A stretch of DNA of 36,901 nucleotides, from IMG/VR virus record IMGVR_UViG_3300009149_004752, positions 1 through 36,901 of that record, one strand, 5' to 3'. Below the pieces are notes generated by a model. That model did no database searches. It saw only the letters and a list, made by a program, of their open reading frames with translations, and was not told where the DNA came from. A program made the translations under genes and the position numbers. Each line of letters begins with the position of its first letter. Within the stretch, counting starts at the first letter, position 1. The DNA is from a virus. Shown piece after piece: positions 6,437-25,449 of the stretch.

Positions 6437-7666
6437 ATGCGAGGATTCTTTGAGAAGACAGCCACACAGCTCCCTTATCGGTCAGAGAAGGGCATCCACT
6501 CCTGCGCTTCCTGCGGGCTCTACAAGTCTGCACACTCACCAAAGATGGAGCCATACGGAGCCTGTGAGAAGGGAATCATGGTGATTGGAGAAGGACCTGG
6601 GGAAGATGAGGACCGTAAGGGTAGGCCATGGCAAGGCAGAACGGGTCATGTCCTCCAGCAGCAGTACACACGTCTGGGCATTGACCTGTTCCGAGACTGT
6701 GTCAGCTTGAACGCAGTCAACTGCCGTCCTGTTGACAAGAAGGGCTTCAACCGACCCCCGACGGAGTATGAGATCGCATGCTGCCGTCAGAAAGTCATCG
6801 ATGCCATAGCCCAGTACAAGCCAGGAATGATAATGCTCCATGGGGCAGGTGCCCTCTCTTCTCTGATTGGCTACAAGTGGAAGAAAGACCTGGGAGGCGT
6901 GATGAAGTGGCGGGGTTGGACGATACCAGATAGAGAGTACGGAGCATGGCTCTGCCCCACATTTCACCCATCCTACGTGGAACGGCAGGAAGAGGACAAT
7001 GAGGTTGCTATCATCTGGGAGAGGGACATCCAGCGAGCCTTCGAGAAGGTGGGGAAGCCGTTTCCATTCTCAGCAGATGAGGAACAGCGAATCATCGTGT
7101 CTGAGAACCCAGGAGACGTCCTGCCGATGCTTCTCAAAGAAGCTCCGCCTTTGATGACTATTGACATTGAGACGACCGGACTGAAACCCTACAACAAAGC
7201 AGAACATCAGATCGTTGCCATCTCATTCTGTTTTGATGTCAACAGAGCCTACGCGATCCCCTTTCCCACGGAGAAGCGGCATCTGGGACTATTGAAACGC
7301 ATCCTAACGAATCCTAATGTGGGCAAGATCGCAGCCAACATGAAGCATGAGGATAACTGGCTGAATGTACTGCATGGAATCGAAGTGAACCCATGGGCGT
7401 TCGACACGATGCAGGCTGCACACGTACTGGATAACCGCCCCGGCATCACAGGTCTGAAATTCCAGGCATACATTCAGTTTGGTGTTCTGGGATATGATGA
7501 AGAGGTCAGTCCTTATCTGCACAGCTCTGCTCCCAACATACCAAATAGGATCCTGGAGTTGACCAGAGATAAGGACTCATTCAGAAGGCTATTACTCTAC
7601 TGTGGGATGGACAGCCTGCTTGAGTTCCGGCTCGCGGAGCTTCAGATGAAGGAGATGGGATGGTAA
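6437..7666 (+). CDS. Family 4 uracil-DNA glycosylase fused to a DnaQ/Pol I-type 3'-5' exonuclease
   Basis: This 409-residue protein joins two enzymes. Residues 1 to about 200 are a family 4 uracil-DNA glycosylase: CASC at 23-26 plus C96 and C115/116 fit the iron-sulfur cluster ligands, GEGPGEDED...GRPWQGRTG is the uracil-pocket motif, and FHPSY (176-180) is the second catalytic motif. Residues about 235-409 are a DEDD exonuclease: TIDIETTGL (D243, E245), NMKHED (D306) and YCGMD (Y388, D392) are the Exo I, II and III motifs. The polymerase at 9946-11349 lacks an exonuclease domain, so this protein probably supplies its proofreading and removes uracil from the template. It starts ten bases after the clamp gene. 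Confidence 0.85.
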   Translation: MRGFFEKTATQLPYRSEKGIHSCASCGLYKSAHSPKMEPYGACEKGIMVIGEGPGEDEDRKGRPWQGRTGHVLQQQYTRLGIDLFRDCVSLNAVNCRPVDKKGFNRPPTEYEIACCRQKVIDAIAQYKPGMIMLHGAGALSSLIGYKWKKDLGGVMKWRGWTIPDREYGAWLCPTFHPSYVERQEEDNEVAIIWERDIQRAFEKVGKPFPFSADEEQRIIVSENPGDVLPMLLKEAPPLMTIDIETTGLKPYNKAEHQIVAISFCFDVNRAYAIPFPTEKRHLGLLKRILTNPNVGKIAANMKHEDNWLNVLHGIEVNPWAFDTMQAAHVLDNRPGITGLKFQAYIQFGVLGYDEEVSPYLHSSAPNIPNRILELTRDKDSFRRLLLYCGMDSLLEFRLAELQMKEMGW

Positions 7667-8838: not shown

Positions 8839-9949
8839 AGGAATGTTGACCCATGTTGACCTGTTTTCAGGTATTGGTGGGTTCAGCCTTGCTGCAGAAT
8901 GGGCTGGATACACGACAGTCTTATTTGTGGAGAAGGACAAGTATTGTCAGGCTGTATTACAGAAGCACTGGCCGAACGTACCCATCATAGGAGATATACG
9001 CGATGTCAATGAAGAGACTGTTGCACACGCCTACTCAGAAGGCCAACCAGATGTCTCCGTCAATGAAGGAACGGGACGCAGGCAGTTGGATGAGAACAGA
9101 GACGGAGCTGGACTCCCCACAATCGACCTTCTTACGGGCGGTTTTCCCTGTCAGCCCTTCTCTGTTGCCGGGCGGAGAGGCGGCAAGGATGACGACCGTT
9201 ACCTCTGGCCGGAGATGCTGCGTGTTATTGCACTCCTCAAGCCCCGTTGGGTGCTTGCTGAGAACGTTGCTGGAATCATCAACATGGCACTCGACGACGT
9301 GCTATCTGACCTGGAAGGCGAGGGGTACGAAACGGGGACGGTTGTACTTCCAGCTTGTGCCGTCAACGCCCCACACCGAAGGGACAGGGTGTGGATTGTG
9401 GCCCACTGCGACGACGGACTCAGCCAGCGACAGGAAGGGCAAGTACAAGCAGGGAGGAACACCGTTGACGTTGGCCATGAAGATGTGGCCGACACCGACA
9501 GTGGCAGACGCAGGACACCCGGGAAGAATCAAGTTAAAGAAGGGGCAGCAAGTCCATTTATCAGAGGCTATACGGATGCTGCCGACACCAGCAGCACGGG
9601 ACTGGAAGGATTGCGGGGACTTCACAGTACACCCAGAGAAGTCAAAGCTAGTTCACAGCATAGGGGGGGAGCTGAATCCAGATTGGGTAGAGCTCTTGAT
9701 GGGCTACCCGAAAGGTTGGACCGAGGTTGGGATGAGAGTTGGGAAAGCAAAACACCAAGGGTCTCGGAAGTCCGTAAACCAGACAGAAACAACAGGCTCA
9801 AATGCCTCGGGAACGCCATCGTTCCGCAGGTTGCGTACGAGATCTTGAAGGGGATAAGACTGACGGAGATCATGATACATGAAGGCCGTTGTGACATGAC
9901 GAAGAAAGGTGCCTTCCTCAGAAGAACCAAATATCCTACTCTACTATGA
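8822..9949 (+). CDS. dcm: DNA cytosine-C5 methyltransferase
   Basis: A 375-residue protein with the C5-cytosine methyltransferase motifs in order: DLFSGIGG (13-20, SAM binding), GGFPCQPFS with catalytic Cys110, AENV (146-149), RRDRVW (about 186-191) and the closing GNAIVPQVAYEI. A 35-residue polar insert lies between the third motif and PCQPFS. The target-recognition region (about 195-330) is rich in ADTDS-type phrases and ends in ESRLGRALDGLPERLD, a common ending in phage relatives. ATG 8822 is used, with AAGG upstream; ATG 8843 would remove seven residues. A 281-codon frame overlaps most of the gene (see 9003-9848). It probably methylates phage DNA against host restriction. The stop overlaps the polymerase start (ATGA). 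Confidence 0.85.
   Translation: MTHLTEGMLTHVDLFSGIGGFSLAAEWAGYTTVLFVEKDKYCQAVLQKHWPNVPIIGDIRDVNEETVAHAYSEGQPDVSVNEGTGRRQLDENRDGAGLPTIDLLTGGFPCQPFSVAGRRGGKDDDRYLWPEMLRVIALLKPRWVLAENVAGIINMALDDVLSDLEGEGYETGTVVLPACAVNAPHRRDRVWIVAHCDDGLSQRQEGQVQAGRNTVDVGHEDVADTDSGRRRTPGKNQVKEGAASPFIRGYTDAADTSSTGLEGLRGLHSTPREVKASSQHRGGAESRLGRALDGLPERLDRGWDESWESKTPRVSEVRKPDRNNRLKCLGNAIVPQVAYEILKGIRLTEIMIHEGRCDMTKKGAFLRRTKYPTLL
9003..9848 (+). CDS. Long overlapping frame inside dcm with methyltransferase-family phrases (tentative)
   Basis: This frame, +1 relative to dcm, is open for 281 codons without a stop. ATG 9003 is preceded by AGGAG (8989-8993) at nine-base spacing. The first 90 codons look like noise. From about 9290 onward the translation has phrases I recognise from phage cytosine methyltransferase C-termini: LTWKARGTKRGRLYFQL, STPHTEGTGCGLWPT, MWPTPTVADA and ELNPDWVELLMGYPKGW. 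The main dcm frame also has familiar family phrases over exactly the same bases. Either both frames are used, or relatives have switched frame during evolution. Expression of this frame here is unproven. Confidence 0.35.
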   Translation: MSMKRLLHTPTQKANQMSPSMKERDAGSWMRTETELDSPQSTFLRAVFPVSPSLLPGGEAARMTTVTSGRRCCVLLHSSSPVGCLLRTLLESSTWHSTTCYLTWKARGTKRGRLYFQLVPSTPHTEGTGCGLWPTATTDSASDRKGKYKQGGTPLTLAMKMWPTPTVADAGHPGRIKLKKGQQVHLSEAIRMLPTPAARDWKDCGDFTVHPEKSKLVHSIGGELNPDWVELLMGYPKGWTEVGMRVGKAKHQGSRKSVNQTETTGSNASGTPSFRRLRTRS

Positions 9950-11349
9950 ACAGGATTGAGAGAAATATGAGAACCAAAGCCACCACAGTAGATGCCTATC
10001 GATTGATTCATGAAGGCATCCTTGCACTTGCCCGAGCGGAGCGCCAAGGCTTCCGGATTGATATTGAATACTGCGAGAAGAAGCGGGAGTCACTGACCCG
10101 GAAGATTGCGCACAATCAGCAGAGAGTTGAGGACACCAAGCTCTACCGCCGGTGGGCTCACATCTATGGAACAAAGACCAACATATACAGCAACCACCAG
10201 CTTGCCCGTATCCTCTACCAGGTGTTGAAGATTGAGCCTCCGAAGATGACGGAGAAGGGCGTGGAGGGAGCCACTGATGAAGAGTCCCTAGCTCAGATTG
10301 ATATGCCCGAATTGAAGTTGATACTACAGATGCGGAAGCTGGTGAAGATTCGGGATACATACCTGGGTGCGTTCATCAGGGAATCAAACGATGGATGGAT
10401 ACACCCAGTGTTTCATCTCCATACCGTCCGTAGCTATCGCTCCAGCAGTTCAGATCCGAACTTCCAGAACATCCCGAAACGAGACGCGGAAGCGATGGAG
10501 ATCTGCCGCCGGGCCATCTACCCTCGACTGGGGCATATGTTGGTGGAGATGGACTTTGCATCCCTTGAAGTGATGATCAGTGCATGCTATCACAAGGATC
10601 CCACCATGCTCAAATACCTCCGGGATAAGCAATCAGACATGCACGCAGATATGGCAGCGCAGATATTCAAGATGGAAACCATTGACCGAAGCCTACCTTC
10701 TCATTACATACTGCGACAGGCTGCCAAGAACGGGTTTGTGTTCCCACAATTCTATGGGGATTACTACGGCAACAATGCGGTCGGCATTGCTTCCTGGGTG
10801 GAGCTGCCTCAGAGCAGATGGAAGAAGGGACAGGGCATCCTCCTCCCAGACGGGTCAAGCATATCTGACCATCTCATGATGAACGGGCTGCATTCATATA
10901 ATCAGTTCGTCGAGCATATGAAGGGTGTGGAAGAGTCCTTTTGGGGACAGCGATTCACACGATACAACCAATGGCGTAAGGCCTGGGTCAAGAAGTATCG
11001 ACGGCTGGGCTATCTGGAAATGCTCACTGGGTTCACATTCTCCGGAGTGATGAGAAAGAATGAGATTATCAACTATCCGATGCAGGGGACCGCCTTTCAT
11101 TGTCTGTTGTACACGTTCATTGAACTGGACAAAATGATGCGGGATGAAGGATGGGATTCGAGGCTTGTAGGCCAGATTCACGACTCAATCCTGATGGATG
11201 TCCATCCAGAAGAGCTCCCACGAGTTGAGCAGGCTATCCGTATGATAGTGAAGGAAATGCTGCCAGCAGCATGGAAATGGATTATCGTCCCATTGGACGT
11301 TGAGATCGAACGTTATGAGATTGACCAGCCCTGGGTCAAGAAAGGATGA
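9946..11349 (+). CDS. Family A DNA polymerase, polymerase domain only
   Basis: The 467-residue protein is a Pol I-type polymerase without the 5' nuclease and 3'-5' exonuclease domains. Palm and finger motifs are visible: RSYRSSSSDPNFQNIP where Pol I has TGRLSS...NLQNIP; motif A LVEMDFASLEV (D203); motif B RQAAKNGFVFPQFYG (R257, K261, Y270); motif C GQIHDSILMD (D413, with Ser in place of the usual Glu after HD). The second catalytic aspartate is present, so it should be active. ATG 9946 overlaps the dcm stop; ATG 9967 is an alternative. Proofreading probably comes from the UDG-exonuclease protein encoded 2.3 kb upstream, and the clamp and clamp loader complete a phage replisome. Confidence 0.85.
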   Translation: MNRIERNMRTKATTVDAYRLIHEGILALARAERQGFRIDIEYCEKKRESLTRKIAHNQQRVEDTKLYRRWAHIYGTKTNIYSNHQLARILYQVLKIEPPKMTEKGVEGATDEESLAQIDMPELKLILQMRKLVKIRDTYLGAFIRESNDGWIHPVFHLHTVRSYRSSSSDPNFQNIPKRDAEAMEICRRAIYPRLGHMLVEMDFASLEVMISACYHKDPTMLKYLRDKQSDMHADMAAQIFKMETIDRSLPSHYILRQAAKNGFVFPQFYGDYYGNNAVGIASWVELPQSRWKKGQGILLPDGSSISDHLMMNGLHSYNQFVEHMKGVEESFWGQRFTRYNQWRKAWVKKYRRLGYLEMLTGFTFSGVMRKNEIINYPMQGTAFHCLLYTFIELDKMMRDEGWDSRLVGQIHDSILMDVHPEELPRVEQAIRMIVKEMLPAAWKWIIVPLDVEIERYEIDQPWVKKG

Positions 11350-14034: not shown

Positions 14035-14204
14035 TTGATGGGGAAGTGGGAAAGAGTATCATTGCTCTCATTGCCATCATATTCCTGATCACTCCCCCAA
14101 TAGCGTTGTTGGTATCGTTCTTCTCATACATCGGCAAGGTATGGGCAATCAGACTACTATTATCAGACAGGAGGAAGAACAACAATGGTGACGAAACGAA
14201 GTAG
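14031..14204 (+). CDS. Small membrane protein
   Basis: A 57-residue protein starting at ATG 14031, overlapping the previous stop (ATGA) and running 20 bases into the SSB gene. Residues about 9-42 are almost entirely hydrophobic (IIALIAIIFLITPPIALLV and following), enough for one or two membrane-spanning helices broken by a Pro-Pro. A basic tail (DRRKNNN) should stay in the cytoplasm. AAAAGGCCCCCAGG upstream is a modest ribosome binding site. Function is unknown. A membrane protein inside a recombination operon is unexpected. Confidence 0.6.
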   Translation: MIDGEVGKSIIALIAIIFLITPPIALLVSFFSYIGKVWAIRLLLSDRRKNNNGDETK

Positions 14205-15306
14205 CAAACGGAGGGGGGCGTTCAAAGGCAAGGTTAGCCGGAACGCAGTGAAGCAGAGCAGGAATGCTCAGTACAAGCATCTGAATCTGCCCAAGGGAAT
14301 GCGTATCTTCAAGGAAGAGCCGAAATCCCGGGTGAGCTTGGACATCCTCCCCTACCAGGTGACGGACCCCCATCATCTCGACCGGGATGAAGAGTATGAG
14401 ACTGCTCTTGAGGGAGGGCTCTGGTACCGGCACCCCTACTGGATCCATCGCAACATTGGAGCCAACAACGAGTCTGTGGTCTGCCCAGGCAGCGTCAAAC
14501 AGAAGTGCCCCATCTGTGAACATCGTGCACAGCTGCTCAAGGACGGGACGGAATGGAATGACGATTCCGTGAAAGCACTGAAGGCATCACTGCGGAATCT
14601 TTACGTGGTGATCCCGAGGGGCATGAAAAACTACGAAGAGACGCCACACATCTGGGACATCAGCCAGTTCCTGTTTCAGGATAAGCTGAACGAAGAGATC
14701 CAGGAGAATGAGGAGTACGAGACCTTCCCGGACCTGGAAGAGGGCTACACTCTCCGCATCCGCTTCACTGCGGAGCAGATTGGCTCCAACAAATTCGCAG
14801 CCACCTCAAGGATTGACTTCATTGAGCGTGATAAGCCATACGCAGAGTCCCTCCTAGAGGATGTGCCGGCACTGGATGATATCCTAATAGTGCCCACATA
14901 CAAGACGGTTGAAGCTCTGTTCTTCGGCGGTCTCTCTCAGGATGAGATTGACGATGAGGACGATGACCGGCCGGACCGCGAAGAGGAAGAGGACGAAAAA
15001 CCAGAGCCAAGGCGCAAGGCCAGGAACAAACCTCCGGTGGACGATGAGGAGGATGAGCCCGAAGAGGATGAAAAACCAGAGCCCAGGCGCAAGGCTAAAC
15101 CCAAACCTGAGCCTGATGACGACGAGAAGGAAGAAGATGAGAAGCCAGAGCCCAAGCCAACCCGGAGAACCAGAACGAAAGACAAAGGCGAAGACGCTGC
15201 AGACAAATGCCCCCACGGCGGAACATTCGGCAAAGACTTTGAAGAGCTAGATGAATGTGAAGCCTGTGAGATGTGGGAAGCCTGCGCAGACGCCTCAGAG
15301 GGCTAG
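14185..15306 (+). CDS. Single-stranded DNA-binding protein, T4 gp32-like
   Basis: The 373-residue protein starts at ATG 14185 after GAGGAAGAACAAC. A basic N-terminal tail (TKRSSKRRGAFKGK) precedes a core with the zinc-ligand pattern CPGSVKQKCPICEH, the layout of gp32-like proteins of T4-type phages. The core ends near residue 250. The C-terminal 110 residues are acidic with three repeats of the type EDEKPEPRRKA, then a second cysteine/histidine group (CPHGG...CEACEMWEAC). In gp32 the acidic tail recruits replication and recombination partners; the expanded repeat tail here probably does the same. It lies directly before the RecA-like recombinase gene. Confidence 0.75.
   Translation: MVTKRSSKRRGAFKGKVSRNAVKQSRNAQYKHLNLPKGMRIFKEEPKSRVSLDILPYQVTDPHHLDRDEEYETALEGGLWYRHPYWIHRNIGANNESVVCPGSVKQKCPICEHRAQLLKDGTEWNDDSVKALKASLRNLYVVIPRGMKNYEETPHIWDISQFLFQDKLNEEIQENEEYETFPDLEEGYTLRIRFTAEQIGSNKFAATSRIDFIERDKPYAESLLEDVPALDDILIVPTYKTVEALFFGGLSQDEIDDEDDDRPDREEEEDEKPEPRRKARNKPPVDDEEDEPEEDEKPEPRRKAKPKPEPDDDEKEEDEKPEPKPTRRTRTKDKGEDAADKCPHGGTFGKDFEELDECEACEMWEACADASEG
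14980..15165 (+). repeat. Acidic/basic repeat tract in the SSB tail
   Basis: Three imperfect copies of a unit coding for (E)EDEKPEPxRKA start near 14990, 15061 and 15130, separated by acidic spacers. Codons differ somewhat between copies, so the repeat is older than the PAKAA repeat at the window start. Confidence 0.7.
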
Positions 15307-15322: not shown

Positions 15323-16387
15323 ATGCAACGAACAAAGCATCGATCTGAGACGCTCAGTGCTCAGATCGAGAAGAAGCAACGTCATACTCAGGGGAGAATA
15401 CCACTCCCCGAGTATGACGGAGGGGATCAGGTTGTATCTACTGGCTCAACCCTTCTGGACCTAGCCATAAGTGGAGGTCGCTTCAAAGAGGGTGGTGTCC
15501 CTTTCGGAATCCTCGTGGAGATATTCGGGCCATCTGGAACAGGCAAAACAGTGCTGCTCTCTCAGATAGCCGGGAACGTACAGAAGATGGGCGGACATAT
15601 CATGTTCCATGATCCTGAAGCCCGCCTGAATAAGCAGTTTGCGCAGATGTTCGGGCTCCTCCCTGATGAGATTGAATACACCATTCCCAACACCATCCCG
15701 GAAGTGTTCAGATCTGTCAGGGAATGGATCCCTGATGAGCCAGAGGAGCGCACAGGACCCTATGGAGTGTTCGCAGACTCCCTTGCAGCACTCTCCACTG
15801 ATATGGAGATGGGCAAGGAGGAAGGGGACAAGATGGGGATGAGGCGAGCCAAGGAGTTCAGTGAAGAGCTTAGGAAGACTTGTCGCATCATCACACAACG
15901 GAACGTCCTGATGGTCTGCTCCAACCAAGTGCGGCAGGACCTGGATGCCGGTCCATATGGTCAGAAGTACCGGAGCCCCGGCGGGGAGGCCCTTGGATTC
16001 TACTCCAGCCTGCGGCTTCGATGTTTGAGTGCCCAGAAGATCAAAGTGAAACGGATCCTCCGAGGACAGGAATATGAACGCATCGTTGGGGTAAAGGTGA
16101 CGGTTGAAGTGTTCAAGTCTTCTGTGTGGAAACCCTTCCATACTGCAGAGATCAACATCCTGTTTGACTATGGCATCGATGATATCCGTGCCAATCTCCG
16201 TTTCCTCAAGACACAAACGAAATCCCCAGTGTATAGAGTGGGGGAGGTAGAGTTGGGTCGGTCTCTAGATTCCGCCATCAAGAAGGTGGAAGAAATGGGG
16301 CTAGAGCTGGAATTGAAGCAGCAGACGATAGCTCTGTGGAACGAGATTGAAGCACAATTCGTCGAAGGACGGAAACCAAAGCAATGA
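15323..16387 (+). CDS. RecA/UvsX-like recombinase
   Basis: A 354-residue RecA-fold ATPase. Residues 39-50 (STGSTLLDLAIS) are the typical lead-in, Walker A is GPSGTGKT (69-76), and VFADSLAALS is the Walker B region. NVLMVCSNQVRQD followed by the YRSPGGEALGFYSSLRLR loop matches the L2 DNA-binding area of RecA/UvsX. It should form filaments on single-stranded DNA and carry out strand exchange in phage recombination-dependent replication. Its partners are probably the SSB just upstream and the helical protein at 13537-14034. The start follows the SSB stop by 16 bases; the stop overlaps the nuclease start (ATGA). Confidence 0.8.
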   Translation: MQRTKHRSETLSAQIEKKQRHTQGRIPLPEYDGGDQVVSTGSTLLDLAISGGRFKEGGVPFGILVEIFGPSGTGKTVLLSQIAGNVQKMGGHIMFHDPEARLNKQFAQMFGLLPDEIEYTIPNTIPEVFRSVREWIPDEPEERTGPYGVFADSLAALSTDMEMGKEEGDKMGMRRAKEFSEELRKTCRIITQRNVLMVCSNQVRQDLDAGPYGQKYRSPGGEALGFYSSLRLRCLSAQKIKVKRILRGQEYERIVGVKVTVEVFKSSVWKPFHTAEINILFDYGIDDIRANLRFLKTQTKSPVYRVGEVELGRSLDSAIKKVEEMGLELELKQQTIALWNEIEAQFVEGRKPKQ

Positions 16388-16758
16388 CGACTACACGCAT
16401 CTTGATATCATCAGCCAAGGCAAAGGGGAAAGCCCTACAGAATTGGACATGCACACAGATCTCTGAACTGCTGGAGCTTCCCTGGGGGAAGGATGAACTC
16501 ATTGCCTCCAGGGAGGCTTCTCAATCTGGAACAGACGTCAGGCTCCTCGGTGAAGCCAAACAGCGTTTCCCCTTCTCTGTTGAATGCAAGAGCCAGGAGA
16601 CATGGGCTCTCCCAGGATGGATCAAACAGGCAGAGGCAAATCAGGTAGAAGGAACGGACTGGTTGCTCGTAGTGAAGAAGCGCCGGATGGACCCTGTAGT
16701 GGTGATGGGTGCGAGCGCGTTCTTTGAGTTGATGAGGAAAGGAAAATCGCAATGTTGA
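16384..16758 (+). CDS. PD-(D/E)XK nuclease, possible Holliday junction resolvase
   Basis: The 124-residue protein contains SGTDVRLLG (D51) followed by FPFSVECKSQE (E67, K69), a complete D...ExK metal-binding active site of the PD-(D/E)XK superfamily, with GWIKQAEANQ after it. Its small size and place between a recombinase and Mre11-Rad50-like genes suit an Hjc-like junction resolvase. A structure-specific or recombination endonuclease of another kind is also possible. It overlaps the recombinase gene by four bases and the next gene by seven. Confidence 0.7.
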   Translation: MTTTRILISSAKAKGKALQNWTCTQISELLELPWGKDELIASREASQSGTDVRLLGEAKQRFPFSVECKSQETWALPGWIKQAEANQVEGTDWLLVVKKRRMDPVVVMGASAFFELMRKGKSQC

Positions 16759-17807
16759 AATCTGTCTCCATTTCTAATTTCCAATCCCATAAGCACACAG
16801 TGCTGGAATTCATCCCTGGCACCAATGTGATCATTGGAGGGACTGATACCGGGAAGTCTGCACTGTTCCGGGCCATCAACTGGGTCTGCTCAAACCGACC
16901 GCTGGGGGACGCCTACCGATCTGAATGGGGTGGAGATACCAGAGTCATTCTTCATACATCAGAGGGGCACATCATTGAGCGCTTTCGCTCTGATACAAAG
17001 AATGAGTACATCATCAACGGGAAGGTGTTGGCTGCCTTCGGCTCCGAGGTCCCACAGGAAGTAGAACAGATCCTGGGGATGGACTTTGCTAACATCCAGA
17101 CGCAGATGGATCCCCCGTTCCTACTCTCAGCCACTCCCGGAGAAGCTGCCAGGATGCTGAATAAGGCTGCGTCCATTGATGATATTGACTATGCCTTATT
17201 CGGCCTGAAGAAGACCCATGGCAAGCTCTCCAGCAGCATCAAGTACAGTGAAGAGCATCTTGCTGAATGCAATGCTCAGATGGGGCAGTATGATGATATC
17301 CCCATCCTGGAGAAGGCCGTACAGAAGGCTGAACAGTTAGTATCATCTCTGAGCAAGAAGTCTACCACTATTGCTACCTTGAACCGATTGACTACTAGAG
17401 CCTCTGAGATGGAGAAGGAACTTGAAAGCACTGAGCACATCCTAAAACTGGCAAAGCGGCATGCAGAAGTAGAATTGTTCTACTCATCGTATCGAGGTCG
17501 CCTGGGGCAATACCAGAGACATTCCGCAGTAATGACCCGAGGGAAGGAACTACAGGCTGAACTCTCTTCCAATGAATATGTGGACCGCGCAATGATAGGC
17601 ATCAATAAAAGTGAGAAGATGCTTTCACGGTGGTCTGCACAATGGAAACAAACGGAAGGATTGAAGCAGCTGGTCATCAAAGGATTGGCTCAATCGGAAC
17701 ATATCAACCGTATGCAGCAGACGATTGAGGAACTAGAACAGGAGTTCAGCAAGTCTGCGCCGGAGTATTGTCCATTGTGCGGAAACCGATGGGAGAAGAG
17801 CAAATGA
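16752..17807 (+). CDS. Rad50/SbcC-like ATPase, N-terminal half ending in a zinc hook
   Basis: A 351-residue protein starting LKSVSISNFQSHKHTVLEF, the standard SbcC/Rad50 first strand, with Walker A GGTDTGKS (29-36) and a Q-loop region near IQTQMDPPFLL. Residues about 150-335 are coiled coil. It ends in YCPLCGNRW (C340, C343), the CxxC zinc hook that normally sits in the middle of Rad50. So the protein stops just after the hook and lacks the signature motif and Walker B, which are encoded at 18995-19630. The two products should assemble into one ATPase. It starts in the overlap with the nuclease gene and its stop overlaps the Mre11-like start. Confidence 0.8.
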   Translation: MLKSVSISNFQSHKHTVLEFIPGTNVIIGGTDTGKSALFRAINWVCSNRPLGDAYRSEWGGDTRVILHTSEGHIIERFRSDTKNEYIINGKVLAAFGSEVPQEVEQILGMDFANIQTQMDPPFLLSATPGEAARMLNKAASIDDIDYALFGLKKTHGKLSSSIKYSEEHLAECNAQMGQYDDIPILEKAVQKAEQLVSSLSKKSTTIATLNRLTTRASEMEKELESTEHILKLAKRHAEVELFYSSYRGRLGQYQRHSAVMTRGKELQAELSSNEYVDRAMIGINKSEKMLSRWSAQWKQTEGLKQLVIKGLAQSEHINRMQQTIEELEQEFSKSAPEYCPLCGNRWEKSK

Positions 17808-18766
17808 TGAGACGAACTAGGGGAAAGGGAACGAGTGCCGCAGATGCTATTGTGGTATCAGATCTGCACTTGACCGATACACCTCCCGTATCCCGCAATG
17901 ATGACTATCTTGTGGCGCAGGAGAAGAAGCTGCAATGGCTGTGTGAGCTGAGCAAAGACAATGATGGGTGCCCAGTACTATGCGCGGGAGACGTATTCCA
18001 CCATTGGAAAGCCAGTCCATGGCTATGCCAGATGGCATGGCACCTTCTGCCCCGGCCATTCGTCACCATCCCTGGGCAACATGACCTGCCTATGCACTCT
18101 TTGGAGGACTACGAGAAGTCCGCACTGTCATTGATAGATTCTATTGATGATGACGTGTATGTATTGAAACGAACAGGATTCTTCACACACGCTTATCGTG
18201 TTGTTGGATTCCCATTCGGGACCCTCGACGATCTTGAGACCATCAAGCTGGTACCAAAAGAAGAGGAAGAGTCCGGTCAGCGCCGGATTCTGATGCTGCA
18301 CGAACTCACCTGGAGTAAGAAGAGGCCCTCATGGGACAAAGGAAGCTGGACTGATCTGGAACTGCTGGAGCGGTATGGTGCCTACTATGACCTGATCGTC
18401 ACAGGAGATAATCACGCCGGTTTCGTCACCAGACAAGGGGACTCCCTATTGGTGAATCCTGGTAGCATGATGAGGATGACTGCAGACCAGAAAGACTACC
18501 AACCAGCATGCTATCTCTACTATGCAATATCCAATGAAGTGGTTCCTGCGTATTTCCCTATCCAGCCCAACGTACACAACACAGAACACCTAGACAAGGA
18601 CCGGGAAAGGGATGCACGCATTGCTGCTTATATTGAACGCATGGAACAGGACTGGAAAGTTGGGTTCTCATTCAGAGCGAATCTGGAAGCCTTCTTCACC
18701 GAGAACAAGGTGACGGAGCAAGTGAGGAAAATCATATGGCAACATCTAGAGACCGGGAACAGCTAG
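17804..18766 (+). CDS. Mre11/SbcD-like metallophosphoesterase nuclease
   Basis: A 320-residue calcineurin-type phosphoesterase. Metal-binding motifs appear in order: VVSDLHL (D20, H22), CAGDVFHHW, PGQHD (GNHD type with Gln for Asn), MLHEL, and TGDNHAGF (GxxH type). GSMMR and a C-terminal helical region follow, which in Mre11 binds Rad50. ATG 17804 (or 17807) has GGGAGAAGAG upstream; the longer open frame back to 17768 is not needed. It is encoded between the two halves of the split Rad50 and should be the nuclease of that complex, processing DNA ends for recombination. Confidence 0.8.
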   Translation: MMRRTRGKGTSAADAIVVSDLHLTDTPPVSRNDDYLVAQEKKLQWLCELSKDNDGCPVLCAGDVFHHWKASPWLCQMAWHLLPRPFVTIPGQHDLPMHSLEDYEKSALSLIDSIDDDVYVLKRTGFFTHAYRVVGFPFGTLDDLETIKLVPKEEEESGQRRILMLHELTWSKKRPSWDKGSWTDLELLERYGAYYDLIVTGDNHAGFVTRQGDSLLVNPGSMMRMTADQKDYQPACYLYYAISNEVVPAYFPIQPNVHNTEHLDKDRERDARIAAYIERMEQDWKVGFSFRANLEAFFTENKVTEQVRKIIWQHLETGNS

Positions 18767-19002
18767 GGCAGCGACTACTGAGGATGAAAGAGGAGCTCGA
18801 ACAGAAGAAGTCCCAGAGATCTGAGCTCCAGGGAGAGCTGAACAGCGTCATGAAGCAGCTCCAGGAGGAGTTTGGAGTGGGGACGCTGGAACAGGCCGAA
18901 GAGCGGCTGGAGAAGGAGAAACAGGAATTACAGGAGATGGAGACTGCGGTACAGGAACAGGTAGAAGAGATTGAGGAAATGATGGAGTCAAGCCATGCTT
19001 GA
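18736..19002 (+). CDS. Coiled-coil protein, possible ascending arm of the split Rad50
   Basis: The 88-residue protein is a nearly uninterrupted helix rich in Glu, Gln, Lys and Leu (MKEELEQKKSQRSELQGEL...). It starts at ATG 18736 inside the Mre11-like gene, with GAGGAAAATCAT as ribosome binding site, and overlaps the next gene by eight bases. Position between Mre11 and the Rad50 C-terminal half suggests it forms or extends the second arm of the coiled coil. No zinc-hook cysteines are present. Confidence 0.65.
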   Translation: MATSRDREQLGQRLLRMKEELEQKKSQRSELQGELNSVMKQLQEEFGVGTLEQAEERLEKEKQELQEMETAVQEQVEEIEEMMESSHA

Positions 19003-19630
19003 CGTCAGGACGCTCCGCAGCCGATTGGAGAATCGGAAGGGCCAGCGGGACCAGCTCCAACACTCCATTGAAGATCTTGAACAGAAGGTCCGGCTGGATA
19101 AGAGGCTGCTGCTACGCCATGAACGTGCTTTGGAGATAGTGAAACTGGTAGGACTGGCCACACAGAAGCAGCTAGAGTACCATCTAGCTGAACAGGTAAG
19201 TCTTGCTATGGAAGCCGTGTTTGACGACCCATATCAGCTCAAGGTGAATTTCGAGGAGAAGCGGGGGAAGACTGAGGTGGAGCTTCTGTTCACCCGTCGA
19301 ACACTTGAGTTCCCACCTATTGGTAGTGCCGGCGGAGGTGCTATCGACGTGGCAGCACTGGCCTTACAGATCGCCTACTGGGCAATGCGGCAGGACAGGA
19401 AAGTTCGCCCATTATTGCTGCTAGATGAGCCATTCAGTAGATTGAAGGGCGTGGAAGCCAACCGAAGGGCACTAGCAGTAGTGCAGGAGATCAGCCGTCG
19501 GCTTGGACTCCAGGTCATCATGGTGAGCGATGAGCGTGTAAGCAGAGAAGACATCATTTTCAATGCTGACGCGGTGACTCATGTCACCCAAAGTTCGGAT
19601 GGAGTCAGCACGGCCGTAAGGCTGGATTGA
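18995..19630 (+). CDS. Rad50/SbcC-like ATPase, C-terminal half
   Basis: A 211-residue protein with a short coiled coil (about 1-65), then the C-terminal ATPase lobe of Rad50/SbcC: signature motif SAGGGAIDVAALALQIA (from 111) and Walker B PLLLLDEPFSRL (D144, E145). It has no Walker A; that lies in the protein encoded at 16752-17807. ATG 18995 follows GGAGTCAAGCC. Each half alone lacks a complete ATP site, so they should work as a hetero-oligomer with the Mre11-like nuclease. It is the last gene of the rightward block. Confidence 0.8.
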   Translation: MLDVRTLRSRLENRKGQRDQLQHSIEDLEQKVRLDKRLLLRHERALEIVKLVGLATQKQLEYHLAEQVSLAMEAVFDDPYQLKVNFEEKRGKTEVELLFTRRTLEFPPIGSAGGGAIDVAALALQIAYWAMRQDRKVRPLLLLDEPFSRLKGVEANRRALAVVQEISRRLGLQVIMVSDERVSREDIIFNADAVTHVTQSSDGVSTAVRLD

Positions 19631-21104: not shown

Positions 21105-23306
21105 TTAGTAGAAATGCTGTCTCCACCTGGGGTCCTTAGCGAAATTCATCTTATCAAGGACAGTACGCGCCCGGTTAGACAGTTCGATCTGCACGTCCAT
21201 CCGGTTGTTCAGGCTACGTACTATGTGAATGATACGAGTAGCAGCCTCCAGCGACAGCGCCTCATCGATGGCCTTCACCTGATCGCCAAGGCTTACTGCA
21301 TCAGCCAAGAATCCATAGCGCTCTAGGTCTACCAACGAGCCCCCATAACTGACATGTGGGTAGGCGAGCTCACCGAGCAGCCGGACTGCCCATTCAAACA
21401 GGGTGGCAGAGTCGGTGATTGAGACGTCTACTACTTGGGCAGCAGCGAAGTCGTAAAGAGCCTTGGAGGCCAGGTCCTCAAGGTAGTCGACAGCCCCCGG
21501 CAGCGTGTACTCGATATAGAGCAGAGGGGACTTCGTAATTGCCGGTACGAGGTACGAACGTCTTGACTGGTACTCCTCGGTCGTGCGGTAGTCGTGGTCC
21601 TCCCAGAAGATGACCATGGCGTTGCCGCTCTCCCAGCCGACCCTGTCGACCACAGTCTGCACGGCAGCCACCACGTTGCGGGAGTAGACCTGCAGTCCAG
21701 TCCACGCCGGGATGTTGTCCCAGTTGACCTTGGTGGTGAGCGACCTCCCCTCATAATCCCCTATCGTCGAGAACTGGGCTGCGTCGTTGGCATCTTCCAT
21801 GTAGACCTTGCTGTAGACGTCGGAGCCTGAGCCGGGGTCAGCATGTGCGGTCAGCCGGAGCTCGGCGACGAGAATCTCTGCCCCCTGGGGAACGTTGACG
21901 CCGGGGAAGCGGCACGCACCGCCATAGGCTTTGAGATCGTCGTACGGCCAACCTACGCGCCACTGAGTACTGAGCGTGGTACCTCCGAGGCGGAAGCCCC
22001 ACTCGGAGACCGTCGTGTCGTACCACTTCAGTGCTAAATCAGCCACCACCTGCGGCTGAGAGGTCACCATGCCTTTGCCGAGCCTCACTAACGTTTCACC
22101 TTCTCCCGCACCCCAAGCCCAGAGGCGGTTGACCAAGTCGGTATAATCGGAAGACCGGCGCACCCCCATGAGGTTCTTGCCGAGCCTGAGCTGTTGTCCC
22201 ACGTCGGAGCCTATGGTAGTCCGCCACTGAAAGGCACCATCTGAGTCTACATACATATAGCCACCAACAGACTCGTGGAGGCGATTGAGGGCTCCCAGAA
22301 TGGTGTCCTTGGGAACATCAATCGAGCGATTGTCAGTGTAGTCGATAGTGCCCAACGTGATAGGAACCGGATGCTCCTGGAGGGCCAAGAGCTCTGAGAC
22401 AATGGTGTTGGTCGCTTTGTCATCAGCGGAGTAGTCGGTCACCACCTCCTTTTCAAGTTGAGCCAGAAGCCCGATAGCCTCAATGTGGAGGGTGCCCCTA
22501 TGGTGGAGGGGCGACTCAACAAGGAGCATATCAAGGGCCACAGAGGAAGGTGTCCTGGAAACTACGAGCATGTCAAGTGCGATGGTAGGGGCACTCATCA
22601 CACCGAGTGAGACGTCAAGGGCAACAGTGGAAAGCGCAGGACCACAGAGGAGGGCGTCTAGGCCCACCGTCTCAGGGGCTCTGGCGGCAACATGAGTATC
22701 AAGGTCTACATTGTGAGCAACTGTGCCACGAAGCAACGCACTGAGAGCAGCAGTGGGCACAGAAGAGGCATCTGCAAGGATAATGTCCAAGGCCACAGCC
22801 GAGGACTCGACGGTGTTAAGCCGAAGGTCAAGAGCCACGGTCGCAGCATCTATAGCCTCAAGCAGGACATCAAGAGCGACAGACTCCGAATCGGCCTGCT
22901 GCAGCAGTACGTCGAGCGACGGCGCTGTCGTGTATGTTGCGGCCCCTGCCTCGTTGAACTCAAACTCATAGAGCGCAATACTGTGACCCGTGAATGTGCC
23001 ATCATGTACTCTGGCTGCGGATACTGTCTCTGTTGAACCTATCTCAACTGTCTGCCAACTCAACGTTCCAACAAATGCAAGAGATAAGGTATGCCACCCA
23101 CCAGAATAGTAGACGTCAACATAGTCTAGCCAAGCAGCGTAGTACCTGACACTATCACATGATATAGGAGGGTCAATGTTTAGAATCAGCCATTTGGACT
23201 GACCATCATCAGTTGCAGCCGTGCCGTCATTTCCATCATAGGCATAGGTAGGATTAGTCCATCCACTATCAGGGTCTTCGTGACTCGTAGGTGATACCCA
23301 TGCCAT
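21105..23306 (-). CDS. Tail-tip/hub protein, second part, with LDALL repeats and carbohydrate-binding-like domains
   Basis: A 733-residue protein starting at ATG 23306 (AAGGAGATAGAATA upstream). Residues 1-120 look like a discoidin (F5/8C-type) domain. Residues 129-264 are ten 14-residue repeats of the form (S/T)VALDxLLxxxDx. From about 275 the sequence resembles the Gp37-like/Tal tail-hub proteins of siphoviruses (IGLLAQLEKEVVTDYS, SVGGYMYVDSDGAFQW, LVNRLWAWGAGEGE). A jelly-roll-like insert at about 425-605 (VNVPQGAEILVAELRL ... LLYIEYTLPG) resembles carbohydrate-binding modules. The final 120 residues return to hub sequence. It probably forms the tail tip and binds the host surface. The first hub segment seems to lie in the gene upstream. 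Confidence 0.7.
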   Translation of the reverse strand: MAWVSPTSHEDPDSGWTNPTYAYDGNDGTAATDDGQSKWLILNIDPPISCDSVRYYAAWLDYVDVYYSGGWHTLSLAFVGTLSWQTVEIGSTETVSAARVHDGTFTGHSIALYEFEFNEAGAATYTTAPSLDVLLQQADSESVALDVLLEAIDAATVALDLRLNTVESSAVALDIILADASSVPTAALSALLRGTVAHNVDLDTHVAARAPETVGLDALLCGPALSTVALDVSLGVMSAPTIALDMLVVSRTPSSVALDMLLVESPLHHRGTLHIEAIGLLAQLEKEVVTDYSADDKATNTIVSELLALQEHPVPITLGTIDYTDNRSIDVPKDTILGALNRLHESVGGYMYVDSDGAFQWRTTIGSDVGQQLRLGKNLMGVRRSSDYTDLVNRLWAWGAGEGETLVRLGKGMVTSQPQVVADLALKWYDTTVSEWGFRLGGTTLSTQWRVGWPYDDLKAYGGACRFPGVNVPQGAEILVAELRLTAHADPGSGSDVYSKVYMEDANDAAQFSTIGDYEGRSLTTKVNWDNIPAWTGLQVYSRNVVAAVQTVVDRVGWESGNAMVIFWEDHDYRTTEEYQSRRSYLVPAITKSPLLYIEYTLPGAVDYLEDLASKALYDFAAAQVVDVSITDSATLFEWAVRLLGELAYPHVSYGGSLVDLERYGFLADAVSLGDQVKAIDEALSLEAATRIIHIVRSLNNRMDVQIELSNRARTVLDKMNFAKDPRWRQHFY
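22515..22922 (-). repeat. 42-bp (14-residue) LDALL repeat array, about 10 units
   Basis: In the 733-residue tail protein, about ten degenerate units of 42 bp encode V-A-L-D-x-L-L repeats. Units containing LRLNTVES and DTHVAAR occur in the same order and spacing as in the array of the neighbouring gene. The array opens with TTAPSLD and closes with VESPLHH. Confidence 0.85.
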
Positions 23307-23319
23307 TATTCTATCTCCT

Positions 23320-25449
23320 TCATTGGTCCGTCTCCTCCATCATCTGAATCTTGCACCGTGAGATAACTGTTCCAGAGATGGAGTCCCTCACCCACAGCTG
23401 ATTCTTCCTCGTGAGCAGCTCAGCCCTTATCTCATCGATAGGCACTGAAAAACTCAGGATGTCCGGGACGTTGGTGGCTTGGTCTAGGCTCGCGCCAGGG
23501 AGGAGGTCTTTGATTACGCCCAACAGCACATCAGACGAATCACGAATCTCAATGGTATAGGGTGGGTAGTGGTGGTGAGTAGAGCTTTCCCAGAGGATGG
23601 CATCGAGAGCTACGGACTTCCCGCCTGTGCCCTCAAGCAGTGCATCAAGGTCGATGGTCTTTGAATCAGTGTCTCGGAGTAGTACGCTCAGGGCAGGCAA
23701 GGATGCCCCTATATCCTCCAGCAATACGTCAAGGGCAACAGACGCATATATCCGAGCAGCCACGTGTGCATCGAGGTCGATGGTAGTAGAGTCGGTGTCT
23801 CGAAGTAGGGTAGTGACGGTAACTGTTGCCTTGTCCAAGGCCTCAAGTAGAGCATCAAGCTCTACTGTCTTGGACTCGATGGTATTCAGCCGGACATCAA
23901 GGTCAACAGCAGAAGTGCCGATAGCCTCAAGTAAGATATCAAGGTCTATCGTCTTGGTATCGATAGCTTTGAGTAGAGCATCAAGGTCGATTGCCCCGGA
24001 GTCGGACTGCCTCAGCAGGGCCGACAGTGATACCGTGATGCTGCGTATCTCGGCAATGAGGGCATCGAGGTCTATCGACGTGGAATCGGTAGCGCGCAGC
24101 AGGGCGGAGACATCGACTCCGAGAGCCACCAAGCCCCTGAGCAACGCGTCGATGTCGATTGTCGTCGAGTTCGCCAGCAGGCCGACTATGACATCCAAGA
24201 GAATGGAGGCGTCATCGGTCTGTCGGAGCAGCGTATCCAGGTCTATGGTCTGGGAATCGGTCGCACGCAGATAGGCATCGAGGTTGATGGAGGCAGAGTC
24301 AACGGCTTTGAGCAGCGCGTCGAGAGACGGGGCTGTCGTCTGGACCAGCTTGTATTCAATGACCAGCTTGGGGCGCGTATTGGCAGTGGTGTGTTCGCTG
24401 GCGCGTAAGTTGGCGTCTGTGTGGCCTGAAGCCAAACCCTCAGTCGCATACTTCAGAAGAATCTCAGCAGCATTCTCATTAGCAACGGCATCCTCTACGA
24501 TATCCTGGACGTCCCATTCCATCCACGCATCAGCCGCAGCGGGAAAGGTGGTCGAACCGCCTGACGGATTAGAGGTAACGTAGTCGCCGCCCGCCGAAGT
24601 CCAACTTGAGCCTGTCTTGTAGATATTCCACGTGGCTTCTGTGTCTACCCAGTCGGTGCGGGATAGCTTGTACGCCCACACGGTTTTGCCGTTCGGGTCG
24701 TTGTTCCCATAACTGTTGTAGTAGAGTCCAAGGGTGGCTGATGTAATGGTTGCATTAGACGGAAGTGAGGAGATGTCAAACTCGAAAAGACATCGACGGG
24801 TCCAAGTAGTGAGGTCAAGCAAGACTAGCAGCATTCCAGTGCCATAGGAAGTATCAGGAAATCTCTCAAGTATGTCGCCATCTTGAGTTGCCGGCTGAAC
24901 CGTCAGCGTCGGGTCAATCGTGATAGGGTACTGGTCGTTAGTAGCTTCAAAGGATTCCGTAACGGAGTCGCCATCTTTGGAGACAGCAACGACAACGTCC
25001 TTTCCATTCTTGTCAAAGGCACGATACGCAACGGGGATGTTCCCCTTGACCTCGAACGTGGCGGACTTGCTCGCCTTCGGAGACTTGAGGATTCGTTGAA
25101 AGGATACGAAGTGCGTGTCGGCATGAATCACCACGTCTATGTCAGGCGCGTAGTCGGCCCATACGATGTCATTGCCTTTGTAGACCGGTTGGACCTTCTT
25201 AGTGGATGCGCCTTTCAGCGTGATAGACGACTCGCTTCCGTCCACGTCGGTCATGGTCAGAGACATCGCCTCTGTGTCTACGGCGAGCTTGTAGGGAACG
25301 CCTGTGAGCTTTCCGTCTACCCACTGCGGATTGTTCTCTTGCCACTCGCCCCCGTCCTCTCGGAACAGCACGGGGTAGCCATAGAATGTCTGTCTACTAC
25401 GGCCATTTCCAAGTCTTTCAGGGAGTGTCGAATTGCGAGTTTCTATCAT
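23320..25449 (-). CDS. Tail-tip protein with DNRLRE-like domain, LDALL repeats and hub N-terminal segment
   Basis: A 709-residue protein starting at ATG 25449. Residues about 1-185 are a beta-rich region of unknown type. Residues about 190-365 resemble a DNRLRE/CBM96-like jelly roll (RCLFEFDISSLPSNATITSA ... RPKLVIEYK). Residues about 372-623 are eighteen 14-residue repeats (IDLDALLxxxDSxT). The last 86 residues (TIEIRDSSDVLLGVIKDLL ... DILSFSVPIDE ... QLWVRD) look like the N-terminal domain of siphovirus tail-hub proteins, the part missing from the next gene. So the hub seems to be shared between two products. A role in receptor or glycan binding is inferred from the domains. Confidence 0.7.
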   Translation of the reverse strand: MIETRNSTLPERLGNGRSRQTFYGYPVLFREDGGEWQENNPQWVDGKLTGVPYKLAVDTEAMSLTMTDVDGSESSITLKGASTKKVQPVYKGNDIVWADYAPDIDVVIHADTHFVSFQRILKSPKASKSATFEVKGNIPVAYRAFDKNGKDVVVAVSKDGDSVTESFEATNDQYPITIDPTLTVQPATQDGDILERFPDTSYGTGMLLVLLDLTTWTRRCLFEFDISSLPSNATITSATLGLYYNSYGNNDPNGKTVWAYKLSRTDWVDTEATWNIYKTGSSWTSAGGDYVTSNPSGGSTTFPAAADAWMEWDVQDIVEDAVANENAAEILLKYATEGLASGHTDANLRASEHTTANTRPKLVIEYKLVQTTAPSLDALLKAVDSASINLDAYLRATDSQTIDLDTLLRQTDDASILLDVIVGLLANSTTIDIDALLRGLVALGVDVSALLRATDSTSIDLDALIAEIRSITVSLSALLRQSDSGAIDLDALLKAIDTKTIDLDILLEAIGTSAVDLDVRLNTIESKTVELDALLEALDKATVTVTTLLRDTDSTTIDLDAHVAARIYASVALDVLLEDIGASLPALSVLLRDTDSKTIDLDALLEGTGGKSVALDAILWESSTHHHYPPYTIEIRDSSDVLLGVIKDLLPGASLDQATNVPDILSFSVPIDEIRAELLTRKNQLWVRDSISGTVISRCKIQMMEETDQ
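23581..24336 (-). repeat. 42-bp (14-residue) LDALL repeat array, about 18 units
   Basis: Eighteen degenerate 42-bp units in the 709-residue tail protein, consensus IDLDALLxAxDSxT. The array opens with TTAPSLD and closes with WESSTHH, matching the boundaries of the array in the neighbouring gene. Nucleotide divergence between units is considerable, so expansion is not very recent. Confidence 0.9.

Follow-up and report, generated by a model that had tools for sequence, protein, structure and literature searches.

The window, by which we mean the whole 36,901-nucleotide stretch of viral DNA analysed here, contains a four-gene locus that probably encodes a phage Mre11-Rad50 DNA-end-processing complex in which Rad50 is built from separate chains and a small coiled-coil protein (K) lies on its arm. 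The genes follow one another on the plus strand in the order N-half of Rad50 (N), Mre11-like nuclease (M), K and C-half of Rad50 (C), with neighbours overlapping by 4 to 31 bases (Table 1), and the N-half ends in ...PEYCPLCGNRWEKSK, the chain stopping eight residues past CPLC. The original prediction, made from the letters of the sequence, had placed these genes correctly and had read them as a Rad50 cut at its zinc hook, with a Walker A motif and the hook in the first half, a signature and Walker B in the second, and a Mre11-like gene and an 88-residue coil in between. All of these elements are present, and synteny, profile and fold matches and inter-chain couplings lend support to its view of the locus as a putative four-gene Mre11-Rad50 complex.

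Table 1. Features of the split Rad50 locus and its upstream neighbours (positions are those of the window; residue numbers are those of the respective protein).
Feature	Position	Strand	Evidence or remark
gp32-like single-strand DNA-binding protein (SSB), upstream neighbour	14185..15306	+	PHROG 1192
UvsX/RecA-like recombinase, upstream neighbour	15323..16387	+	Pfam PF00154, PHROG 97
PDDEXK nuclease / Holliday resolvase-like, upstream neighbour	16384..16758	+	Pfam PF24608, PHROG 244
N-half of split Rad50 (N lobe, arm, terminal zinc hook)	16752..17807	+	351 aa; Rad50 N-lobe profile match; PHROG 16465, 77
Walker A GGTDTGKS (N residues 29-36)	16836..16859	+	G29, G34, K35 invariant in 68 relatives
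Q-loop glutamine Q118 of N	17103..17105	+	Q in 205/205 relatives
N arm base (residues 146-197), pairing with C-half coil	17187..17342	+	antiparallel N-C couplings
47-residue arm repeat 1 (residues 198-244)	17343..17483	+	lag-47 self-similarity; N237-K21, N234-K25
47-residue arm repeat 2 (residues 245-291)	17484..17624	+	lag-47 self-similarity; N284-K21, N281-K25
47-residue arm repeat 3 (residues 292-338)	17625..17765	+	lag-47 self-similarity; N329-K25, N331-K21, N318-K28
Zinc hook CPLCG (N residues 340-344), near C-terminal end	17769..17783	+	CxxC near end in 200/205 relatives
M, Mre11/SbcD-like nuclease	17804..18766	+	320 aa; Mre11 structure profile match; motifs DxH, GD, G[QN]HD, H, GDNH nearly invariant
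M C-terminal part (residues 265-315), likely Rad50-binding	18596..18748	+	couplings to coil base
K, coiled-coil protein	18736..19002	+	88 aa; helices 4-46 and 51-87; AF2 mean pLDDT 97
C-half of split Rad50	18995..19630	+	211 aa; Rad50 C-lobe profile match
C-half coil (residues 1-55), descending arm at base	18995..19159	+	antiparallel couplings with N146-197
Signature region SAGGGAID (SAGGGAIDV)	19325..19348	+	Gly replacing canonical Ser; Rad50 C-lobe alignment; motif census
Walker B LLLLDEPF	19412..19435	+	D144, E145 invariant in 75 relatives
H-loop position, IMVSDE	19517..19534	+	usual His absent in window's clade; motif census

The identity of the three larger proteins rests on profile searches against solved structures, which matched N to the Rad50 N-lobe (E 4e-15), C to the Rad50 C-lobe (E 2e-15) and M to Mre11 (E 4e-12). 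AF2 models N, at a mean pLDDT of 86, as the N lobe followed by helices 142-178, 183-226, 228-273 and 275-335, and the top Foldseek matches of this model are mostly Rad50. The Mre11 motifs DxH, GD, HD and H are nearly invariant in the family, and most members have the variant GDNH as against GHxH. The C lobe and Walker B of the C-half are clear; ATPase activity is not assured, because the signature Ser position is Gly and the H-loop His is absent in the window's clade, which carries SDE in place of the SH or TH of others, the His being kept in many relatives. K, which AF2 models as two helices joined by a short loop, has no match among solved structures, folds (Foldseek) or PHROG.

The split of Rad50 is an old, widespread family. 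A scan of viral contigs and metagenome-assembled contigs gave hundreds of matches, which came to 251 distinct loci after duplicates were removed; L020, a chimeric contig end, was left out. The order N-M-K-C, which the original prediction had proposed to look for in other phages, is found in 216 of the 251, many of the others being cut by contig ends. None of the 251 has an intact Rad50: N and C are two chains wherever both halves are present, and the sole fusion joins Mre11 to N (L033), with the C-half separate. The N-half closes with CxxC, followed by a median of 7 residues, in 200 of 205 loci; of the five exceptions, four still have two cysteines, spaced further apart. By tblastn, few named phages have part of the locus (Bacillus phage vB_BboS-125, Microbacterium phage Magritte and Microcystis phage Mvi-JY20), as does an uncultured 485-kb phage. 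Single-protein scans of a bacterial and archaeal genome collection yielded no relatives in one case and 21 loci in the second, all but one of the 21 coming from contigs titled MAG, mostly short, which makes host assignment unsafe. The phages that make Rad50 in separate pieces form a large and apparently undescribed environmental group; a literature search confined to openly licensed PMC papers found no description of a split Rad50.

Since the same order recurs in 216 of 251 loci and no intact Rad50 occurs, the arrangement reflects neither chance nor an assembly error. A frame or assembly error affecting a single gene, which the original prediction had named as an outcome that would overturn it, is excluded by the same counts, and gene decay is rejected for so conserved a family. 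One might still suppose that the pieces are mutually unrelated, decayed or misassembled, given that other genes separate them in some relatives and that N and C of phage Magritte lie far apart in the linear record; the shared order, the intact motifs in all four genes and the strong inter-chain couplings described below leave this reading with a negligible probability. K was found in nearly all complete loci and was never fused, and where its profile missed it there was mostly a K-like small coil ORF immediately before C. That K is a conserved fourth component and not an incidental coil had escaped the original prediction.

Inter-chain couplings suggest how the chains fit together. They were computed by mean-field DCA with our own scripts on paired sequences from 129, 163 and up to 205 loci, a depth at which the signal is noisy, and with fewer alignment columns for Mre11. 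The top N-C couplings form two groups, one in the head (N135-C128, N110-C140, N20-C175, N36-C114 and N119-C114) and one in the coil (N152-C49, N190-C4, N194-C8, N187-C11, N170-C25 and N159-C42). Within the head, N36-C114 and N119-C114 link Walker A and the Q-loop with the signature region and fit the composite ATP site that the two halves had been predicted to form. In the coil, the residue sums run from 194 to 202, so that all pairs share a single antiparallel N-C register to within roughly two heptad positions. M is coupled to the coil base through its C-terminal part (C56-M293, C44-M307, C49-M311, N148-M315), and it is at this base that Mre11 docks in known complexes. The couplings support a model with one composite ATPase head, an antiparallel coil formed by N and the first ~50 residues of C, and Mre11 at the coil base. 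The locus would combine several hallmarks of Mre11-Rad50, namely an ABC-type N lobe bearing Walker A and the Q-loop, a candidate zinc-hook CxxC motif at the arm tip, the Mre11 motifs and, as indicated by the couplings, an antiparallel coil with Mre11 docked at its base; the N and C lobes, usually on one polypeptide, are on two.

A very improbable alternative is a chromosome-organising SMC-like complex akin to archaeal ASRP/coalescin in place of an end-processing nuclease. The N-half does hit the ASRP profile, with E 6e-7 for the window and 4e-14 for L037, and ASRPs are likewise SMC-like ATPases with a zinc hook (PMC9389158), but the match is weak, the ASRP family score of the N-half being 28.6 bits against a cut-off of 300. 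ASRPs are also single chains (PMC9389158), unlike the two found here, and the related intact archaeal Rad50/ASRP-like chains found by the ASRP profile lack the lag-47 repeat signal described below. The conserved Mre11 gene with near-invariant catalytic motifs, the couplings at the coil base and the RecA and SSB neighbours all argue against it. Among the 163 loci having enough upstream sequence, a RecA homolog is present in 139 and a gp32-like SSB homolog in 100. On account of homology and these neighbouring genes, the complex would most likely be a phage nuclease that, like T4 gp46/47, processes DNA ends for recombination and recombination-dependent replication.

That the N arm past the C coil is an array of 47-residue repeats is supported less strongly. 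Arm lengths, counted from residue 146 to the hook, show distinct peaks at 147, 194 and 241 residues, or about 53 + 47n with n = 2, 3 and 4; the window's N has three repeats, and the 53-residue part equals the C coil in length. BLOSUM self-similarity of the arm at lag 47 is 0.03, compared with -0.66 +/- 0.02 in shuffles, and the AF2 model of N has helix breaks near 180, 227 and 274. The repeats are old, with 16.5% identity among them within one protein and 12.1% between different-number repeats across proteins. A quick M+C tree implies no fewer than 31 changes in their number, a rough figure because it comes from a single FastTree run. In the 2-, 3- and 4-repeat classes alike, K is constant at 74-76 residues and the C coil at 54-55, and length compensation, in which K or the C coil would grow with the N arm, is rejected (rho 0.07 between the N arm and K + C coil). 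The original prediction had overlooked both the varying number of units in N and the constancy of K and the C coil.

The couplings of K with N follow the same period. Smoothed antiparallel registers of K helix 1 on N lie at 253, 304 and 351, those of helix 2 at 275, 319 and 363, and the same residue pairs recur across repeats: K21 couples with N237, N284 and N331, and K25 with N234, N281 and N329. Folding over 47 gives helix 1 one best antiparallel offset, shared by the full data set and 7 of 8 half-splits; this offset outscores the best parallel one throughout and is lost when K is shuffled, that of helix 2 being less clear-cut. Discovery and testing of the registers drew on overlapping data of modest sequence depth. 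The distal register of helix 1 starts at the hook, and its proximal register stops where the C coil starts. The registers of the two helices overlap by ~14 residues, an overlap that the 4-residue loop barely permits. From these patterns we give nearly even chances to the proposal that the missing descending arm is replaced by several copies of K, each on its own repeat.

In a split Mre11-Rad50 with one K per arm, K would supply just one additional segment of the descending arm, beside the C coil, the extra repeats would pair with something else or fold on themselves, and the other couplings would be echoes of co-evolving repeats. The repeats do couple with each other at lag 47, so that one true K contact may echo in other repeats, and they are more alike within a protein than across proteins; moreover, the strongest single couplings (N237-K21, N217-K35, N210-K46) fall at the register beside the C coil, and the combined length of K and the C coil (~130 aa) corresponds to that of a 2-repeat arm (147). 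However, N281-K25 equals N234-K25 in strength, the three best smoothed registers of each helix are spaced 44-51, most of an arm with 3-5 repeats would lack a partner, and K stays the same length as the arm grows. We consider this arrangement unlikely, and still more doubtful is one in which K is a helical hairpin clipped on each 47-residue repeat, with helix 1 antiparallel and helix 2 parallel to N in a three-helix rod. The two helices and short loop of the AF2 model would suit such a hairpin, and N210-K46, N214-K50 and N214-K58 place the loop level with the beginning of helix 2, but helix 2 prefers antiparallel registers (the parallel score being nearly equal in some half-splits). The intra-K couplings contain no band at a hairpin register, and an intramolecular hairpin is not favoured.

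The core of the preferred arrangement has the backing of several computational results. They indicate that N and C fold into one ABC ATPase head, N supplying Walker A and the Q-loop and C the signature, Walker B and the H-loop region, that the first ~50 residues of C form the descending strand at the arm base, antiparallel to N146-197, that the C-terminal helices of Mre11 dock at this base, and that N continues to the zinc hook and then stops. With less support, helix 1 of K would lie antiparallel on each repeat, and K copies would line up one after another between the hook and the C coil in place of the missing descending strand; beyond this, we infer one K per repeat (N1:C1:K3 here), junctions bridged by K helix 2 and Zn-mediated hook-to-hook pairing as in ordinary Rad50. 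The original prediction had suggested that a single cysteine pair on a free hook end could alter the pairing of the arms. The N chain may act as a ruler, each of its 47-residue repeats recruiting one K, a proposal whose chances we place slightly short of even; gain or loss of repeats would lengthen or shorten the arm in whole steps of ~7 nm, other parts being unchanged. The complex would process DNA ends together with the adjacent UvsX-like recombinase and SSB.

The arms of Rad50 and SMC proteins relay signals across tens of nanometres, and this family, with arm lengths that differ by discrete units and other parts that stay constant, offers a natural test of the effect of arm length. An arm that can be separated into chains and reassembled from them would also make arm length, a nick in the descending strand and a free hook end directly testable. 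In addition, a likely function emerges for hundreds of phage genes that lack annotation, among them K, which matched no known family.

Like Mre11-Rad50, SbcCD and phage T4 gp47-gp46, the system would have an ABC head, a long antiparallel coil with a zinc hook and Mre11 at the coil base, and phage recombination genes adjoin it; it differs in having Rad50 in two chains cut just past the hook, a small conserved K, 47-residue arm repeats and Gly for the signature Ser. Altered gene structure is also known from the Mre11/Rad50 fusion proteins of Mimivirus (R555) and Bacillus phage 0305phi8-36, the latter missing one P-loop NTPase segment (PMC3175470); L033, with its Mre11-N fusion, resembles these, but fusion there contrasts with four separate genes as the rule here. 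SMC proteins also have arm lengths in preferred periodic steps, and the importance of periodic elements in the Rad50 arm has been called unclear (PMC5344682), but in SMC the chain runs continuously out and back, whereas here discrete 47-residue repeats lie on one strand and the partner strand apparently comes from other chains. Bacillus phage vB_BboS-125 (gp32 'exonuclease', gp34, gp35 'ATPase') is a cultured member of the family whose annotation does not recognise the split Rad50. It has an N-half ending in the hook, K, a C-half and a Mre11-like ORF nearby; its order is different (N, AP2-domain gene, K, C, gp36, M), and its arm is 298 residues long.

The ATPase motifs of the separately encoded C-half of Rad50 depart from the canonical form at two points: the signature serine is replaced by glycine across the split-Rad50 family, and the H-loop position reads SDE in the window's clade, whereas other members carry SH or TH. 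These differences may alter ATP hydrolysis. The zinc hook at the end of the N-half has a wider Cys-Cys spacing in four related loci, L071, L211, L260 and L423 (CPFYNVIC, CPVTGEYC, CPIFSVPC and CPIVEEFGSC, respectively). In Mre11, motif V is GDNH rather than GHxH in 166 of 205 members, a change that could possibly affect metal coordination.

The arrangement of the genes differs in some relatives. In the related locus L033, Mre11 is fused to the Rad50 N-half, possibly resembling the fusion of Bacillus phage 0305phi8-36, which is without one P-loop segment (PMC3175470). In Bacillus phage vB_BboS-125 (L001), an AP2-domain gene separates the N-half from the small coil protein, and NC_048735.1 has no CDS annotation at the Mre11-like ORF. 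In the linear record of Microbacterium phage Magritte (OR553905.1), the halves lie far apart, the N-half being near 93.8 kb and the C-half near 0.4 kb; gene 2 of this record is annotated as 'exonuclease'.

The family A DNA polymerase of the window likewise appears to be divided between two ORFs. Tail-type proteins of the window contain numerous short repeats of the SVALDVLL / TIDLDALLR kind.

Coordinates of the features discussed
Feature	Location	Remark
C-half signature region	window 19325-19348	
C-half H-loop position	window 19517-19534	
Mre11-like gene	window 17804-18766	
Mre11-like ORF, vB_BboS-125	L001:8247-9227	NC_048735.1 about 22423-23403
Mre11-Rad50 N-half fusion	L033:4999-7122	707 aa; C-half separate
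UDG-like + 3'-5' exonuclease ORF	window 6437-7666	
Separate ORF with polymerase domain	window 9946-11349	~2.3 kb from UDG-like/exonuclease ORF
Tail-type proteins with short repeats	window 21105-25449	- strand
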